Shown here one piece after another: positions 16,060-22,957 of a stretch of DNA of 36,547 nucleotides (within the stretch, counting starts at the first letter, position 1; each line of letters starts with the position of its first letter). The notes beneath the pieces were generated by a model. That model was not told the DNA's origin. It saw nothing but the letters and a program-made list of their open reading frames with translations, and did not search any database. This DNA comes from Spirochaetales bacterium. GTDB taxonomy: Bacteria; Spirochaetota; Spirochaetia; Sphaerochaetales; Sphaerochaetaceae. The stretch spans positions 1 through 36,547 of the forward strand of contig JAAYFO010000070.1 of NCBI GenBank assembly GCA_012728215.1. The letters run 5' to 3'. The translations under genes and the position numbers were made by a program.

Positions 16060-17298
16060 TCAGGTATTGGTTATGACAAAGAAGTACATGGTGGTGTAGT
16101 AGTTTCCGGCAGTCATCTTGGAAGTGTCCTGATTTGTCTGTAGAAAAGTCTTTATGTAGATTGGAAGAGAAGAGAGGGACCAGTTGCACGAATAGAGGAC
16201 TTGGCTTGTGGTTCCTGATACTACAGTGGCCGAGAGCGGAATAGGAATCTTGTAGATATATTGGTTGCCTCCGCTGTTTCCTAGCTTTGAGAACTGTGCA
16301 CCCTGATCTGAAGAATAGACACCATACCACATTGTATTTACAATGGACCGGGTTGCATATTCCGAGTTTTCCAGAATGAATCTGTATGGAGACGGAGATT
16401 CGTTGGACGGAGCCGTGTAGTTGGACACGGGTGAAAGATAGATGGAATACTTGTTCGTATAGGCGGTACTTTGACTAGGTGGAGTGGCGTTGTAGGCCTG
16501 GGTGACGAATTCGTTTCCCTCGAACATCAGATTGGCAACAGGAGAATAAGTCTGAGTGTCGGAAAGGTCGACGTTGAAGGTGTTTTCGGCATTCTGAATA
16601 TAGAAGGAGAACGATGAGCTTTGCTCGAACTCCGCCCCGTAGTATCCCTTTATCAGGATGTCCTCGGTCTTTCCATCGTAATCTGCTGTGAGGTTTACGT
16701 TGTAATACCCGCCTTCCAGGCTGCCTTCAGCGGGAATGGTACTTGAATCCAGGACAATGACGACCTGATAATGGTAGTAAGTCTTGCAATAGAAGAATTC
16801 TTTCAATATCCATCCATCAAATGCCCAGTAACTGCCCCATGTTGATTTCTTCATGGTGAAGTCAAGGCTGTCAGTGGATTTACTGGACGAAGCAAGAACC
16901 TGTGTCGGCAATGTCGCTGAATATGATGATTTTTTATTAGGCGTTTCCCACTTTATCTCATATACAGCGATGGAAAAATCTCTTGATGAAGTCAGGTTGC
17001 TTTCATGGATAAATGCAAGGTCGTCTGCAAATATGGAAACGGAGACTGCATTTTCCTTTGTGTTTATCATGCGAAACAGCTCGACCTGATTGTCTTGTGG
17101 AGTCCCTTGGAAGTCCGCCTGAATATCCGAAGCGGAGCAGACTTGCACTGAGGACATGTCGTAGGCGTAGTTTTCGTTGTTTACTGTAGTCTGGCTCAGA
17201 AGCCAGGTGCTCTTTTCGGATATCTCGACATTTCCTCCAGCAAGAAGAAGGAAGCAGGCCAGGTTGGAGATAATTAAGAATAAGGTGATTTTCTTCAT
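16060..17298 (-). CDS. Secreted beta-rich protein, left operon gene 4
   Basis: This 412-aa protein was not recognised. It starts with a signal peptide (residues 1-20, MKKITLFLIISNLACFLLLA), followed by about 390 residues rich in Ser, Thr, Tyr and Asn with alternating hydrophobic residues, as in beta-sandwich proteins. It ends in TAGNYYTTMYFFVITNT, the motif shared by most proteins of both operons. Start 17298 has GGAGA upstream; the preceding stop is one base away (TGACATG). It corresponds to gene 4 of the right operon: similar length (412 vs 423), and GYYGAEFEQSSSFSFYIQNA aligns with GLYESTAFQNSYAAFVVVPNA, each followed by a DL/DI-D segment. Probably the largest subunit of a secreted assembly; function unknown. 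Confidence 0.7.
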   Translation of the reverse strand: MKKITLFLIISNLACFLLLAGGNVEISEKSTWLLSQTTVNNENYAYDMSSVQVCSASDIQADFQGTPQDNQVELFRMINTKENAVSVSIFADDLAFIHESNLTSSRDFSIAVYEIKWETPNKKSSYSATLPTQVLASSSKSTDSLDFTMKKSTWGSYWAFDGWILKEFFYCKTYYHYQVVIVLDSSTIPAEGSLEGGYYNVNLTADYDGKTEDILIKGYYGAEFEQSSSFSFYIQNAENTFNVDLSDTQTYSPVANLMFEGNEFVTQAYNATPPSQSTAYTNKYSIYLSPVSNYTAPSNESPSPYRFILENSEYATRSIVNTMWYGVYSSDQGAQFSKLGNSGGNQYIYKIPIPLSATVVSGTTSQVLYSCNWSLSSLPIYIKTFLQTNQDTSKMTAGNYYTTMYFFVITNT

Positions 17299-17299
17299 G

Positions 17300-17848
17300 T
17301 CAGTTCTCCGTGGTGAATACAAACACTATCGTCGATGAATATGTTCCGGCGGTCAGATCCGATATTTCATTGGCACTTGCATTCATGCTTACATAAAATG
17401 CCTTGTTTGTAATTGCAAATGGAGGGACTGAACCCAGATCGGAAGAAGTTATGGTTATAAAGCCTGAATCTGCCGTGCTGTGGTATGCTGTCTTGAACTG
17501 ACCGGAATCCGAGTAGAACAGATCCAGTCGGTAGTCAACGTAACTTGAGGTATCGGTGGAATGGACAAGATAATCATGATAGACCTTCAAAGAGAAGGAA
17601 TTGTTGCAGAACAGGCTGTAGTTTCCTGCATGTATTCCTCTGACGTTTGCTGTGTCAGTGTTCTTCTTTGCTTCATTGCTTTCAACATCGAAGGGAAGCA
17701 GGTCTGTATTCAATGTCACTCTCATAGATGCGTTGGTGCCGATGTATCCGACGACGAGCCAGGAATAGGGTGAAGATGCGGTGCTCGTTGCAGGCAATGA
17801 TGAAACCGCCATGAGAATTACAAATAAAATCAAAATTGTCTTCTTCAT
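17300..17848 (-). CDS. Secreted beta-rich protein, left operon gene 3
   Basis: This 182-aa protein of unknown function has a signal peptide (MKKTILILFVILMAVSSLPATSTA) and a predicted beta-sandwich body. It aligns with gene 3 of the right operon: LVVGYIG versus LVVTGLVG after the signal peptide, DYRLDLFY versus DYELAVEY in the middle, and AGTYSSTIVFVF versus DGEYRSTVTFNF at the end. The start at 17848 is chosen because the signal peptide begins there; an upstream in-frame ATG would put about 19 polar residues ahead of it. It lies 10 bases after gene 2 with a weak ribosome-binding site. The two internal cysteines are absent except one near residue 81, so disulfides are unlikely to be a feature. 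Confidence 0.7.
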   Translation of the reverse strand: MKKTILILFVILMAVSSLPATSTASSPYSWLVVGYIGTNASMRVTLNTDLLPFDVESNEAKKNTDTANVRGIHAGNYSLFCNNSFSLKVYHDYLVHSTDTSSYVDYRLDLFYSDSGQFKTAYHSTADSGFITITSSDLGSVPPFAITNKAFYVSMNASANEISDLTAGTYSSTIVFVFTTEN

Positions 17849-17858
17849 AATGACCTGC

Positions 17859-18653
17859 CTAAGTTGCCTGGATGTGCACAGAAATAGTCGATTCATAATA
17901 CCCATTTGGCACTGCTGTCTGTGGACTGCTGCTATATACTATGTTGCCATTGCTTTCCTTGATTCCAAGAATCACATATGCACTTCCTGTCCTGTTCCAA
18001 TGATTGCATATGACAGGCTTCTGGCTCGGGTTTGAAATCAGAGCCCCGTTATTCGAAACTGTAGAGTTTGTCGACATGTCATATTTGATTTCAATTGTCT
18101 GATTTGTCTCAGCGGGAGTGAAGTCTGACTCAAGTGTCCAACTGAGAGTGTCGAATTGCTGTGAAGTTGAACCAATTGAGCTTACATGATCCGAATACGC
18201 ATATGTATAGTTGTTTATCTTGAAGCTCGGAGTGCTGAATGGGGTGCCGTCATATGAAATCGTATGGTTGCCGATCTTCGTCTCTTCGCAGACGAACTGA
18301 AGAGAATACGGGATTGCGTAAGCGCTGTCTTTCAGAACCAGTGGTCCGATAGTGAAGCTCAGATTCACCTGGCTGAACCTGTTTCCTGAAGCCACCCATG
18401 TGAACGCCTTGATTGTATTGGCACTTGCATTTCTTGCAGATGCCGGAAGTTCGGCATTGATTGTGTCTGAAAGATATATTCTGGAGTTGTTGAGCATTCT
18501 GATCTCATAAGCTTCCAAAGGCATTGCGCCGCTTTGACCACCTTGATATTTTACAGCTGTCAGAATCACTTCGGAACTTAATGTCTCGGAAGTGGCTGGC
18601 ATGGAAATCAAGAGAAGAATGAAAAACATTACAAGGAATAAGCGGACCTTCAT
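17859..18653 (-). CDS. Secreted beta-rich protein, left operon gene 2
   Basis: This 264-aa protein of unknown function begins with a signal peptide (MKVRLFLVMFFILLLISMPATS). Its body matches gene 2 of the right operon: F-x-W-x-x-x-x-x-F, then SFTIGPL here and SFTIGLL there, and later GALIS versus GSILIS after a beta-rich stretch. It ends in NGYYESTISVHIQAT, a form of the shared C-terminal motif. The ATG at 18653 overlaps the gene 1 stop as ATGA, with GGAGG ten bases upstream; an in-frame start 27 codons earlier would lie deep in gene 1 and place an Arg-rich stretch before the signal peptide, so it is rejected. Confidence 0.7.
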   Translation of the reverse strand: MKVRLFLVMFFILLLISMPATSETLSSEVILTAVKYQGGQSGAMPLEAYEIRMLNNSRIYLSDTINAELPASARNASANTIKAFTWVASGNRFSQVNLSFTIGPLVLKDSAYAIPYSLQFVCEETKIGNHTISYDGTPFSTPSFKINNYTYAYSDHVSSIGSTSQQFDTLSWTLESDFTPAETNQTIEIKYDMSTNSTVSNNGALISNPSQKPVICNHWNRTGSAYVILGIKESNGNIVYSSSPQTAVPNGYYESTISVHIQAT

Positions 18654-19198
18654 TGTACGATTTCCTCCACTGTGACCTGTCCTGTGTACTCTCCGGCGAT
18701 TGACTCTCCTACTGGAACACAGTACATGGAGCATATCTGTCTTGTTGTCTCAGGCTGTCCAAAGTTTGCATAAAGACCCAAACCATCGAATTGCACATAT
18801 CCTGCACCGAATTGGTTTGCAGTGGGGGTCACTGGTACTTCGATTCCGGATGATGACACTATCTTCATTCTATATGTCATGCAGTTGCTCGATGTATAGG
18901 TGGCTGGATTGGCTTCCTTGCATAGGTTGGTCCAACTTATTTTGTAGGAGATGCTTTCCAATGATTCATTGAAGACTATTTTCAGATAGCCGACAAGTGC
19001 TTCTGCGGCTTCTGAGTCTAGAGTCACCGTTGTTATGGTGTTTCCTTCTGAATCAGTGAAGACCGGACTGTGATATGAAGTTACGTTCACGGAATGAAAC
19101 ATTCCGTAAGTTCCCTGCGCCTGTGCGGCAACGGCGCTGGCGGAAGCTGTCATGGTACAGACGAGGATAAGTATGAGAATTGTTTTCTTCTGTACCAT
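18650..19198 (-). CDS. Secreted beta-rich protein, left operon gene 1
   Basis: This 182-aa protein of unknown function is the first gene of the left operon. It has a signal peptide with a good cleavage region after SAVAAQA (about residues 20-26). The body is beta-rich and has four cysteines, in two pairs near residues 93/106 and 155/160, which could form disulfides in the periplasm. The end is AGEYTGQVTVEEIVQ, matching the shared motif. It corresponds in position and length to right gene 1 (182 vs 176 aa), though sequence agreement is limited to the ISYKIS / ISFKIS region and general pattern. The start at 19198 has GGGAGG seven bases upstream. Confidence 0.7.
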   Translation of the reverse strand: MVQKKTILILILVCTMTASASAVAAQAQGTYGMFHSVNVTSYHSPVFTDSEGNTITTVTLDSEAAEALVGYLKIVFNESLESISYKISWTNLCKEANPATYTSSNCMTYRMKIVSSSGIEVPVTPTANQFGAGYVQFDGLGLYANFGQPETTRQICSMYCVPVGESIAGEYTGQVTVEEIVQ

Positions 19199-19227
19199 TG
19201 TTTTTCCTCCCTTCCATATTTCTTCAG

Positions 19228-19238
19228 TTGTGTCACAA
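19228..19238. promoter_or_regulatory. TTGTG-T-CACAA palindrome at the left operon start point
   Basis: TTGTGTCACAA forms an inverted repeat with one central base and covers the predicted left operon start (about 19235). Its core GTGTCACA recurs at 19791-19798 inside the spacer of the right operon promoter. A shared operator is plausible. Confidence 0.4.
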
Positions 19239-19241
19239 GTA

Positions 19242-19271
19242 ATTATAACCCCACAAGCAACTATGTTTCAA
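19242..19271 (-). promoter_or_regulatory. Promoter of the left secreted-protein operon
   Basis: On the minus strand TTGAAA (19271-19266) and a consensus TATAAT (19247-19242) are 18 bases apart. The predicted start is near 19235, giving a leader of about 37 nt before the gene 1 ATG. Confidence 0.6.
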
Positions 19272-19779
19272 GTTTTTTTTTGAATTTTCATTAACTATTT
19301 TTGTATTGTCATATTGAAGAAAGAGCTATGAAATCGCTAATTGCTTTTATTGTAATTAAAATCGCTACATATTTTTGCGTTTATGACAAATGAAAAAAAA
19401 CATATGCACTGAAGAAAAGGCGCTTGTGCTTTTCGGTTTTTTCAAATTATCATCATCTTTTTATTGCCTTCGCCCCGTTTCCCTCCACTTTTTTAATTAT
19501 GTTGATAAACTTGTGGCAAAACTTATCTTTTTGTTGAAAGGTATTTGGGGTTTGTTGTTGATATTTGAATTGGTTGATTGTCTTTTTCTGTTTTAATTTG
19601 ACATAACATAGCAATAAAAAATGAATAAATACAATTTTATCTTTGATTTTATGACAGTGATAGTTTGAATTCTTCAAAATATGTCAACAGTTTGACGAAT
19701 TAGTTTAATAATTTTAAATCTTTGAAAACAAAGAATTAAGAAAATTATTAAATCTTTTACTTTTTAAATATAAAAACTA

Positions 19780-19809
19780 TTGACTAATGGGTGTCACAGA
19801 ATATATATT
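19780..19809 (+). promoter_or_regulatory. Promoter of the right secreted-protein operon
   Basis: TTGACT (19780-19785) is followed by TATATA (19802-19807, spacing 16) or TATATT (19804-19809, spacing 18). GTGTCACA (19791-19798) lies within the spacer. The leader contains two copies of AGCTAG (19822 and 19829). Confidence 0.55.
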
Positions 19810-19845
19810 ACATATGACATAAGCTAGAAGCTAGGGTGGTCAGAG

Positions 19846-20376
19846 ATGAAGAGAATGTTTTTGATTGTGATGTTTTTATTCATCGGATTGACATGCGTTT
19901 TTTCTACTTTCAATATTCAGTTCACCTCTTCCGACAACCAATATACCACCATCCAGTTTACAGATTTCACCGCAGGGACAAGTGTGCTGTCCACTGATAC
20001 TATAAGAGATCTTGATACTTATCAGGGGGTGTTCTGGGTAAGAATTTCTACAACTTTGACGTCTTCAATCAGTTTCAAGATATCGGCAACTCCTTTCATT
20101 GGAGTAAACGATGCAAACTCCAAGCTTGCTTACTCTCTTAAGCTTAGCAGGGATTATCTGCCTTTGGTCGGCGATGCCTTTCAGACGATTTCTGTTGGAA
20201 CTGGTTCAAGTCTTTATGAATCATCAAGCATAGCAGTAGATCCAAACGACTATAATACCAACGGAACTCCCTTCATCTGTGTCTGCGGATATGCGAATCT
20301 CCCAAGCACTTCTCTTCAGGGAGCGACTACCGGCACTCATGTTTCCACCGTTTCGCTTCATTTGGTTGTGAATTGA
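19846..20376 (+). CDS. Secreted beta-rich protein, right operon gene 1
   Basis: This 176-aa protein of unknown function opens the right operon. Its signal peptide is MKRMFLIVMFLFIGLTCVFS. The rest is Ser/Thr-rich with alternating hydrophobic residues, and it ends in TGTHVSTVSLHLVVN, a variant of the shared C-terminal motif with His in place of Tyr. It has two cysteines close together (VCVCG-like, near residues 146-148). It corresponds to left gene 1 in position, length and an ISFKIS segment. An AGGGTGG stretch lies six bases before the ATG. Confidence 0.7.
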   Translation: MKRMFLIVMFLFIGLTCVFSTFNIQFTSSDNQYTTIQFTDFTAGTSVLSTDTIRDLDTYQGVFWVRISTTLTSSISFKISATPFIGVNDANSKLAYSLKLSRDYLPLVGDAFQTISVGTGSSLYESSSIAVDPNDYNTNGTPFICVCGYANLPSTSLQGATTGTHVSTVSLHLVVN

Positions 20377-20389
20377 CAAGGAGAAGATA

Positions 20390-21103
20390 ATGAAACATTT
20401 CATATTGATGATGATCATCATTCTTACCGTTCCTCTTCTTCCAGTCGTCTCGACAGTGACTACTGATGCTGCGCTCACAGTATCCGGGTACAAGAATGCA
20501 AGTGATACACCCACTTCAAGCGGTTCATACTCATTGCAGCTTCAGTCGTATCTGAATACAGCGATAGCGAACGAATCGGTCATAGTGCTGGATCCATCCA
20601 AGCATGCTACGGCAAGCTCGAGTGACAGCAAGTTCTTTTCCTGGACGATAGGCAGGACTTTTGACTCATCGGCATATTTTGACTTTCCTTCTTATAGCAA
20701 GAACACAACCATTGGAACATTGTCATTCACAATAGGCTTGCTTAAGGCTTCGTACAACGGATCGTACTATAATCCGGCCTATGATCTGACATTTGCCATA
20801 TCTAGTCAGGCCTCTTCTGTTGTCAAGGATTATTACTTGACAAGATACAAGTACACGCCTTCCCTGGTGAGCACCGGAGTTGTCAATCAATCTGTCCAGG
20901 CTGGAAAGAATCAGTCGTTCAGCGGTTCGGTGTTTTCCTATGATTTCAACATCACAAGATCAAGGAAGAACAATGCCACAGTGAACTATGACCTTGAAAT
21001 CGGCGGAAACGGATCGATCCTGATTTCATCTCTGCACAGCGATGTCCAGAATCTTCAACTTACATACACTGCCCCGGTGGTTGTGGAGTTTACCGTGCAA
21101 TAG
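20390..21103 (+). CDS. Secreted beta-rich protein, right operon gene 2
   Basis: This 237-aa protein of unknown function has a signal peptide (MKHFILMMIIILTVPLLPVVS) and a beta-rich body with no cysteines. It aligns with left gene 2 around F-S-W-T-I-G, then SFTIGLL and GSILIS. Its C-terminus is TAPVVVEFTVQ, in which the Gly-x-Tyr part of the shared motif is missing, so it is the most divergent end among the eight. AAGGAG lies six bases before the ATG, and the gap after gene 1 is 13 bases, so the genes are co-transcribed. Confidence 0.7.
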   Translation: MKHFILMMIIILTVPLLPVVSTVTTDAALTVSGYKNASDTPTSSGSYSLQLQSYLNTAIANESVIVLDPSKHATASSSDSKFFSWTIGRTFDSSAYFDFPSYSKNTTIGTLSFTIGLLKASYNGSYYNPAYDLTFAISSQASSVVKDYYLTRYKYTPSLVSTGVVNQSVQAGKNQSFSGSVFSYDFNITRSRKNNATVNYDLEIGGNGSILISSLHSDVQNLQLTYTAPVVVEFTVQ

Positions 21104-21114
21104 GAGGTGAGGAA

Positions 21115-21684
21115 ATGAAGATGCGATTGTTTTTTTTGATATCCGCCTTGATTCTCTTGATCATCATGTTCCCGTTGTCGGCATTGAGCAATTCTTCCAA
21201 CGACCTCGTAGTCACCGGTTTGGTAGGCAAGCTTCATTCTGTTTCAGTTTCCCAATTCGCCGATTCCATGCCGATAGATTTGGATTATTCGGTAAACAAC
21301 AACCTTCTCATCACGCCAACAGCCACTCCTGTGTCCGAACCGGGCCTTAAGATAGCCACCTGGTCGATGACGACGAACAGCCTGCCGGCAACCATGGTGA
21401 TAAGTCATGACCGCATCGTGAATACATTGAACAACACGATATCTTATGATTATGAACTTGCTGTGGAGTATCAGCTGGATTCCTCTGCAGCGAATGTGGT
21501 GCAGATTGCAATTGCCGGTAATCAGATCGAAATCCAGTTGAATGATGCGGGAGCTGGTCTGTATTCCGTTCAGGATGCCGGAATGTTCTTTCGTCTGTGC
21601 AAGGTAAATGGGATCATTGGCAGCAATCAGATTCAAGATGGTGAATATCGGTCCACCGTCACGTTTAATTTTATAGGCACATGA
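21115..21684 (+). CDS. Secreted beta-rich protein, right operon gene 3
   Basis: This 189-aa protein of unknown function has a signal peptide (about residues 1-24) and is the clear partner of left gene 3. LVVTGLVG matches LVVGYIG, ISYDYELAVEYQ matches SYVDYRLDLFYS, and DGEYRSTVTFNF matches AGTYSSTIVFVF. It is preceded by a strong AGGAGG eight bases before the ATG. It stops one base before gene 4 begins (TGATATG), the same tight junction seen between left genes 3 and 4, which suggests that the coupling predates the duplication. Confidence 0.72.
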   Translation: MKMRLFFLISALILLIIMFPLSALSNSSNDLVVTGLVGKLHSVSVSQFADSMPIDLDYSVNNNLLITPTATPVSEPGLKIATWSMTTNSLPATMVISHDRIVNTLNNTISYDYELAVEYQLDSSAANVVQIAIAGNQIEIQLNDAGAGLYSVQDAGMFFRLCKVNGIIGSNQIQDGEYRSTVTFNFIGT

Positions 21685-21685
21685 T

Positions 21686-22957
21686 ATGAAGAAAGGTCTT
21701 TTTGCTTTACTTTTAGTGATGATAGTCACAAGTGCGTTGTCTGCTGTTACGGTTTTTCAGACTGCAGAACAGGGAAACCAATGGGACCTGGCTTCGTCAT
21801 ACCCTGCTCCTTCTGTGGGAAGTTCATGGAATAACGGGTATGGAATCAACAATTTCATAGGGCTTGTCGGTGTTCGAAATCAGACACATCCAATCAAGTT
21901 CACAGTTTCTTCCAATTGCAAATTCGTCAGTTCTCAGGATCAGACTAAGTTCAGAGCTGTATCGCTGTATTTTGTTCCAAGATTTTCCACATCAGCGACT
22001 CTTGGCGGATCTCATACTTCATTCCTGAAGGAAATTTCCTATGATACTGCAAATCATACAGTGACTGTTTCTCAAAATCAGATGTCCAATCTGCCTTCAT
22101 TGACCGCTTCGGGATCGATTGAGCTTTACACCCCCATCACTGACTCCGCTCATTTTTATGACTATGGGAATGGCACCAGTGTGATTGGATCATATTGGCT
22201 TGATACGGTGTTGGTCATGCCGACTCTAAATGATGAAGAAAAGAAGCATATGGTGAAATCCTCTGATTACATTTTGACTGTCAATGTGAATTACGAATGT
22301 CTTGAGTCCGGCTGTCAGAATCCAGATCATTTTGGAGGCATTGTTCTTCTGTACAACGGATTGTATGAATCCACCGCTTTTCAGAATTCATATGCGGCTT
22401 TTGTAGTTGTCCCCAACGCCGATGCCAATTCGTTGGATATCGACGACATGGTCAACAACCAGACCCAAGTGCTGGTGGGGGAGTATCTTTATTCTTCCAA
22501 CTACCTGTACAATGATTCTGCATCTGTGATCAATGGAACCAAGATATTCGCATCGTCGTCCTCGTCGTATATTGATAATGCCGCTTCGACTTTCCGTCTG
22601 AAGAAGGAAGGAATAGTCAGTTCCGATACTGCATACAACAGCGTTCCATTGATTGTAACGACAAGAGATGATTCGGCGGTGGGAAGTGTCAAGACCGCGA
22701 CATACGATGGTACCGATTATTATTCTTCCAACGGGGACAGAAGGGTGAATCAGGGAGGGACGGGAACGTACACGACGCTGGCTTTCCCAAATGCCATTGC
22801 CGGAAATAGCGGTACCTTCATCGCTCAGACTGCAAAAATCTACGTATCTGTTCCTGCAACTGATCCTCTTACAGGGAACAATACGCTTTACTCAGCTACA
22901 GGCCTGCTGGCCGGTTCATATAAGGAAACGATCTACTTTCATATTGTTGTTGAATGA
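21686..22957 (+). CDS. Secreted beta-rich protein, right operon gene 4
   Basis: This 423-aa protein of unknown function has a short signal peptide (MKKGLFALLLVMIVTSALS). The body appears to hold two beta-rich halves, meeting near residues 225-250, and one cysteine pair within YECLESGCQN. It ends in LLAGSYKETIYFHIVVE, a textbook form of the shared motif. It is the partner of left gene 4 by order, length and the GLYESTAFQNSY-AAF region followed by LDIDDM. No ribosome-binding site separate from gene 3 is visible, so it is probably translated by re-initiation. No clear terminator follows. Confidence 0.72.
   Translation: MKKGLFALLLVMIVTSALSAVTVFQTAEQGNQWDLASSYPAPSVGSSWNNGYGINNFIGLVGVRNQTHPIKFTVSSNCKFVSSQDQTKFRAVSLYFVPRFSTSATLGGSHTSFLKEISYDTANHTVTVSQNQMSNLPSLTASGSIELYTPITDSAHFYDYGNGTSVIGSYWLDTVLVMPTLNDEEKKHMVKSSDYILTVNVNYECLESGCQNPDHFGGIVLLYNGLYESTAFQNSYAAFVVVPNADANSLDIDDMVNNQTQVLVGEYLYSSNYLYNDSASVINGTKIFASSSSSYIDNAASTFRLKKEGIVSSDTAYNSVPLIVTTRDDSAVGSVKTATYDGTDYYSSNGDRRVNQGGTGTYTTLAFPNAIAGNSGTFIAQTAKIYVSVPATDPLTGNNTLYSATGLLAGSYKETIYFHIVVE

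Follow-up and report, generated by a model that had tools for sequence, protein, structure and literature searches.

What two back-to-back operons for secreted proteins build, and how they came to face away from each other, is the question raised by a 36,547-nucleotide stretch of DNA from a Spirochaetales bacterium (assembly GCA_012728215.1). This stretch, hereafter the window, is the entire contig C117 (JAAYFO010000070.1) of a 1.76 Mb genome that is 97% complete and split into 212 contigs, and the relatives of this genome in the public record are Sphaerochaetaceae and rumen Spirochaetales metagenome-assembled genomes (MAGs). The left operon (16060-19198) and the right operon (19846-22957) are divergent and encode four secreted beta-rich proteins each, with mature-start lengths, counted outward from the centre, of 182/264/182/412 aa on the left and 176/237/189/423 aa on the right. 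Our analysis indicates that they are very probably two pilin cassettes of a divergent Sphaerochaetaceae chaperone-usher pathway, both served by one chaperone and one usher encoded elsewhere in the genome. The genes are named below by operon (L or R) and by rank from the centre; the E values come from rank profiles built on the operons of other genomes, with the window left out and signal peptides removed.

16060..17298, minus strand: L4, rank-4 two-domain tip adhesin-like subunit, 412 aa; rank-4 profile E 4e-17; C-terminal half of rank 4 like rank 3
17300..17848, minus strand: L3, rank-3 pilin-like subunit, 182 aa; rank-3 profile E 2e-18
17859..18653, minus strand: L2, rank-2 pilin-like subunit, 264 aa; rank-2 profile E 9e-19; glycine at -14
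18650..19198, minus strand: L1, rank-1 pilin-like subunit and presumed shaft, 182 aa, leading gene of the left operon; rank-1 profile E 1e-5; glycine at -14
19242..19271, minus strand: left promoter-like site, TTGAAA-18-TATAAT, 11/12; consensus match only
19780..19809, plus strand: right promoter-like site, TTGACT-18-TATATT, 10/12; consensus match only
19846..20376, plus strand: R1, rank-1 pilin-like subunit, 176 aa; rank-1 profile E 3e-9; glycine at -14
20390..21103, plus strand: R2, rank-2 pilin-like subunit, 237 aa; rank-2 profile E 2.5e-20
21115..21684, plus strand: R3, rank-3 pilin-like subunit, 189 aa; rank-3 profile E 3.5e-41; AlphaFold2 model pLDDT 78.6
21686..22957, plus strand: R4, rank-4 two-domain tip adhesin-like subunit, 423 aa; rank-4 profile E 3e-69; model pLDDT 75.6

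The eight reading frames are all open and all begin with signal peptides, and the junction between ranks 3 and 4 has the form TGA-N-ATG in both operons (TGACATG and TGATATG). Both the two divergent four-gene operons with their protein lengths and the like junctions had been described in a first-pass annotation of this DNA, which further held that proteins of equal rank are related and named better matches between different ranks as evidence to the contrary. Pairwise Smith-Waterman comparison gave a partial result of that contrary kind: L3/R3 alone stood clearly above shuffled sequences (z 8.9), ranks 1, 2 and 4 were too weak to decide, and for L4 the score against R2 (z 3.1) exceeded that against R4 (z 1.3). 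The profile hidden Markov models (HMMs), in contrast, recovered both window proteins at the matching rank in all four cases, with shuffled and reversed decoys reaching E 0.008 at best, and thereby upheld the rank correspondence. L1 is the weakest case, since the rank-1 HMM places L3 (1e-6) slightly above it, because ranks 1-3 are paralogous; a family rank-1 profile that includes L1 matches L1 in its own genome at E 1.1e-37. Comparison of the mature profiles gave 96% for rank 1 versus 2, 96% for rank 1 versus 3 and 93% for rank 3 versus the C-terminal half of rank 4 (reversed controls, at most 3%), and the operon is therefore a set of related domains in which rank 4, judged by its sequence, is a rank-3-like C-terminal half with an extra N-terminal domain. 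A search with R3 through 139 genomes of the same family found matches at E up to 0.1 in 32, and the loci around the best of them showed the same four-gene order (approximately 180/220/200/430 aa) in many genomes.

To see what these domains are, we compared structural models. The top Foldseek matches of the R4 model were CfaE-CfaB, SafDAA and the CupB6 tip adhesin. In VIA-align comparisons, R4 residues 19-230 matched CfaE-CfaB (Z 8.6) and CsuA/B (8.5), residues 236-423 matched CfaE (6.6), and R4 matched CsuE at Z 6.7, so that the predicted R4 model has an Ig-like pilin fold; the R3 model points the same way more weakly. In 64 of 80 proteins, a glycine lies near position -14 and the second residue after it is Y, F or H. 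A glycine about 14 residues from the end that leads into an alternating beta strand is the usual C-terminal signature of chaperone-usher pilins.

The first-pass annotation had noted that no usher or chaperone accompanies the operons and had set them apart from known pilus clusters on that ground. This view did not survive the search of related genomes. Matches to the usher family PF00577 were all below cut-off, yet three of them lay beside rank-4 matches, in open reading frames (ORFs) of 1100-1300 aa. In four relatives (G013, G067, G047 and G072), a chaperone gene and an usher gene come first and are directly followed by ranks 2, 3 and 4 and then additional pilin-like genes, with E values of 5e-26 to 2e-36 for rank 4 and 1e-17 to 2e-20 for rank 3. 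The chaperones exceed the PF00345 cut-off, and the PF00577 cut-off is exceeded by the ushers of relatives at loci L065 and L085. The source genome holds one chaperone gene (C10:12690-13436; family profile E 2.9e-95; 31.9 bits against PF00345 PapD_N, cut-off 23) and one usher gene (C10:9480-12491; family usher profile E 4.1e-187), adjacent on contig C10 and unlinked from the window cassettes. Sharing of an operon by pilin, chaperone and usher genes is the usual arrangement in chaperone-usher pathways but does not strictly define them. Across the family, the chaperone was found in 105 and the usher in 104 of the 139 genomes, and the usher occurs in 54 of the 57 genomes with a strong rank-4 match (Fisher p 3e-6, a value that ignores phylogeny). 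One chaperone-usher pair elsewhere in the genome most probably assembles both cassettes.

Several observations weigh against this reading. The association just given leaves kinship among the genomes out of account, and 50 genomes have the usher with no detectable rank 4. Three genomes with rank 4 yielded no chaperone and usher, namely G118 (92% complete), G127 (63%) and G129 (73%); many family genomes are incomplete MAGs. The cassette of G118 (locus L044) is complete. Taken alone, the usher of the source genome has no Pfam match and lies below the PF00577 cut-off, and searches of Pfam and NCBIfam with the eight window proteins returned no pilin or other family, the matches to MalM, T4 Spackle and MOSP-associated families being weak and below cut-off. 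Apart from these objections, the same eight proteins gave no match to the SCPU domain (PF05229), alignments of ranks 1-3 have no invariant cysteine column, a sequence search of the PDB with the rank-3 and rank-4 profiles found no match, and no relative turned up when viral contigs were searched with R4 or genome contigs with L4. A further objection is that the structures closest to R3 are archaeal cannula proteins, ahead of Caf1: VIA-align ranked CanA (Z 7.6, with a further CanA chain at 7.4) above Caf1 (6.6) and then many pilins, all below 8, with TasA at 5.9, and Foldseek with the R3 model listed Pyrobaculum bundling pili while giving no match with E below 0.001. These R3 matches would suit another kind of donor-strand fibre, of the TasA, archaeal bundling pilus or cannula type, that forms without an usher while the chaperone-usher pair serves something else. 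We consider this highly unlikely, given that chaperone, usher and ranks 2-3-4 are contiguous in four genomes, that R4 is closest to chaperone-usher pilins, and that a profile search of the source genome found no rank-1 or rank-2 genes beyond two of each, and so no other such pilins for its usher.

With the chaperone-usher reading favoured, an outline can be given of how the products may be made. All subunits would be exported through their signal peptides, held in the periplasm by the single PapD-like chaperone and passed to the usher encoded by the adjacent gene. The usher would then link them into a polymer through donor-strand exchange and secrete the resulting fibre. By analogy with the Csu pilus, which consists of CsuA/B, CsuA, CsuB and the tip CsuE with the chaperone CsuC and the usher CsuD (PMC4654587), the shaft is probably the product of gene 1, the minor or adaptor subunits joining shaft and tip are probably those of genes 2 and 3, and the product of gene 4 is probably a two-domain tip adhesin with a pilin domain as its C-terminal half. 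The fibre would be displayed on the surface and would serve in adhesion, and the two cassettes may compete for, or alternate on, one usher to give two alternative pilus or adhesin types. The same pathway could instead yield an afimbrial coat, or fibrils that are short or thin, in which rank 4 does not sit at a tip. In favour of this, the many extra pilin-like genes of the G013, G067 and G047 loci are absent from the window cassettes; since the anatomy parallels the four Csu subunits (PMC4654587), with the two-domain protein last, we regard such a product as possible although unlikely. That the cassettes are remnants, one or both unexpressed or unassembled, is very unlikely: one cassette has strongly diverged in rank 1, whereas none of the eight frames is interrupted and all encode signal peptides, a promoter-like site precedes each operon, and both lineages have been kept across genera. 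The idea of two retained versions of a four-subunit secreted structure, put forward in the first-pass annotation, is supported. For its suggestion that they are switched against each other, neither an invertible repeat nor a recombinase was seen; the divergent intergenic region contains only short AT-rich inverted repeats and no invertible element, together with the one promoter-like site per operon.

How the mirror pair arose was addressed with trees of ranks 2, 3 and 4 and of their concatenation, which give broadly the same picture. An operon of G024, a genome of the same genus, is the sister of the right operon, inside a clade spanning several genera, while the left operon falls together with a single operon from each of G135, G127 and G131; the split between the two clades has 100/100 support in the concatenated tree. 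Both lineages also adjoin in tandem in another genus, as seen in G135 and G127. From these sequences, the window operons represent two old lineages spread over Sphaerochaetaceae. The inverted duplication of a whole operon proposed earlier is not supported: rank homology and mirror orientation would fit a recent event of this kind in this lineage, yet the grouping of the right operon with operons of several genera and of the left operon with a different clade, and the tandem pairs of G135 and G127, make it extremely unlikely. In the window, G024, G135 and G131, the cassettes have a leucyl-tRNA synthetase gene nearby. Three adjoining cassettes occur in G010, two of them in tandem and one convergent. 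The G126 cassette sits between two copies, in direct orientation, of seemingly the same hydrolase gene (L046:75-788 and L046:6779-7492), as if by duplication or insertion, and one cassette of G135 has an extra pilin-like gene of 212 aa (L036:6315-6953) ahead of rank 1.

The usher of the family has an unusual N-terminus. It consists of one transmembrane segment, a Pro/Glu-rich linker of approximately 110-250 residues and then the usher N-terminal domain, whereas in other Spirochaetia families the part ahead of that domain measures 0 to approximately 60 residues, with the exception of L088, whose start is uncertain. The ushers of G013, G067, G047 and G072 carry three to seven transmembrane segments before the linker; the usher ORFs L060:10224-13589, L061:7507-11250, L062:5204-9127 and L063:6682-10134 start with 3-7 predicted transmembrane segments, and their usher domain comes after a long linker of acidic character. 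The multi-spanning N-termini cannot be signal peptides, while the single segment may be a cleaved one. A single transmembrane anchor with a Pro/Glu-rich linker resembles TonB and TonB-like proteins, from which the family usher differs in that the rest of the protein is an usher and lacks the TonB C-terminal domain. In most genera of the family, the chaperone and usher genes directly precede a V-type ATPase operon and point the same way; they do so in the source genome (L076:9381-13433), where a 6-base gap separates the usher from the V-type ATPase genes. Such genes were recognised immediately after the usher and in the same direction in 21 of the 34 loci inspected, and G003, cut off by a contig end, is probably the 22nd. 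It is conceivable, though doubtful, that the usher is anchored in the inner membrane with its linker spanning the periplasm and that the V-type ATPase linkage is functional, which would couple assembly to the inner membrane or its ion gradient, unlike known ushers, which work at the outer membrane without needing an energy source.

Comparison with known systems places the pathway near established chaperone-usher types. With the archaic (sigma) Csu pilus of Acinetobacter baumannii it shares a PapD-like chaperone, an usher and a set of four subunits that ends in a two-domain tip, as well as the similarity of the R4 model to CsuA/B and CsuE; it differs in that the window pilins have neither a PF05229 match nor invariant pilin cysteines (a criterion from PMC4654587), in the separation of chaperone and usher from the pilin genes, and in the N-terminal membrane anchor and long linker of the usher. 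The alternative chaperone-usher pili CFA/I and ECP are similar in that CfaE-CfaB is the top Foldseek match of R4 and that a PDB search with the family chaperone profile retrieves EcpB (E 3.5e-4); they differ in having no detectable sequence family match, another operon layout and another phylum. Other Spirochaetia families have canonical pilin-chaperone-usher-adhesin operons, with an SCPU domain (PF05229) in the adhesin, which suggests that the Sphaerochaetaceae system descends from an ordinary chaperone-usher system. In a profile comparison with signal peptides removed, ranks 2-4 showed no significant similarity to the pilins of these families, and rank 1 a moderate one (68%, E 5e-5). In G481, a genome of another family, two chaperone genes flank a pilin-like gene ahead of one usher (L085:7552-9842).

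The type of pathway is already known, while its split layout and unusual usher appear to be undescribed in spirochaetes. In the open-licence literature, of which our coverage was incomplete, no account was found of chaperone-usher pili from Sphaerochaeta or from any other spirochaete, and a 2015 paper lists the archaic class for Proteobacteria, Cyanobacteria and Deinococcus-Thermus only (PMC4654587). The present reading would extend chaperone-usher pili to Spirochaetota and give a function to an unannotated gene family that is found, as a strong rank-4 match, in approximately 40% of the Sphaerochaetaceae genomes searched (57/139). An anchored usher would make the bridging of both membranes by an usher a testable question. 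In G135, one usher accompanies five rank-4 genes, and such multiplicity of rank-4 genes, up to five for a single usher and unlinked from it, suggests that the adhesin repertoire of the family is modular.

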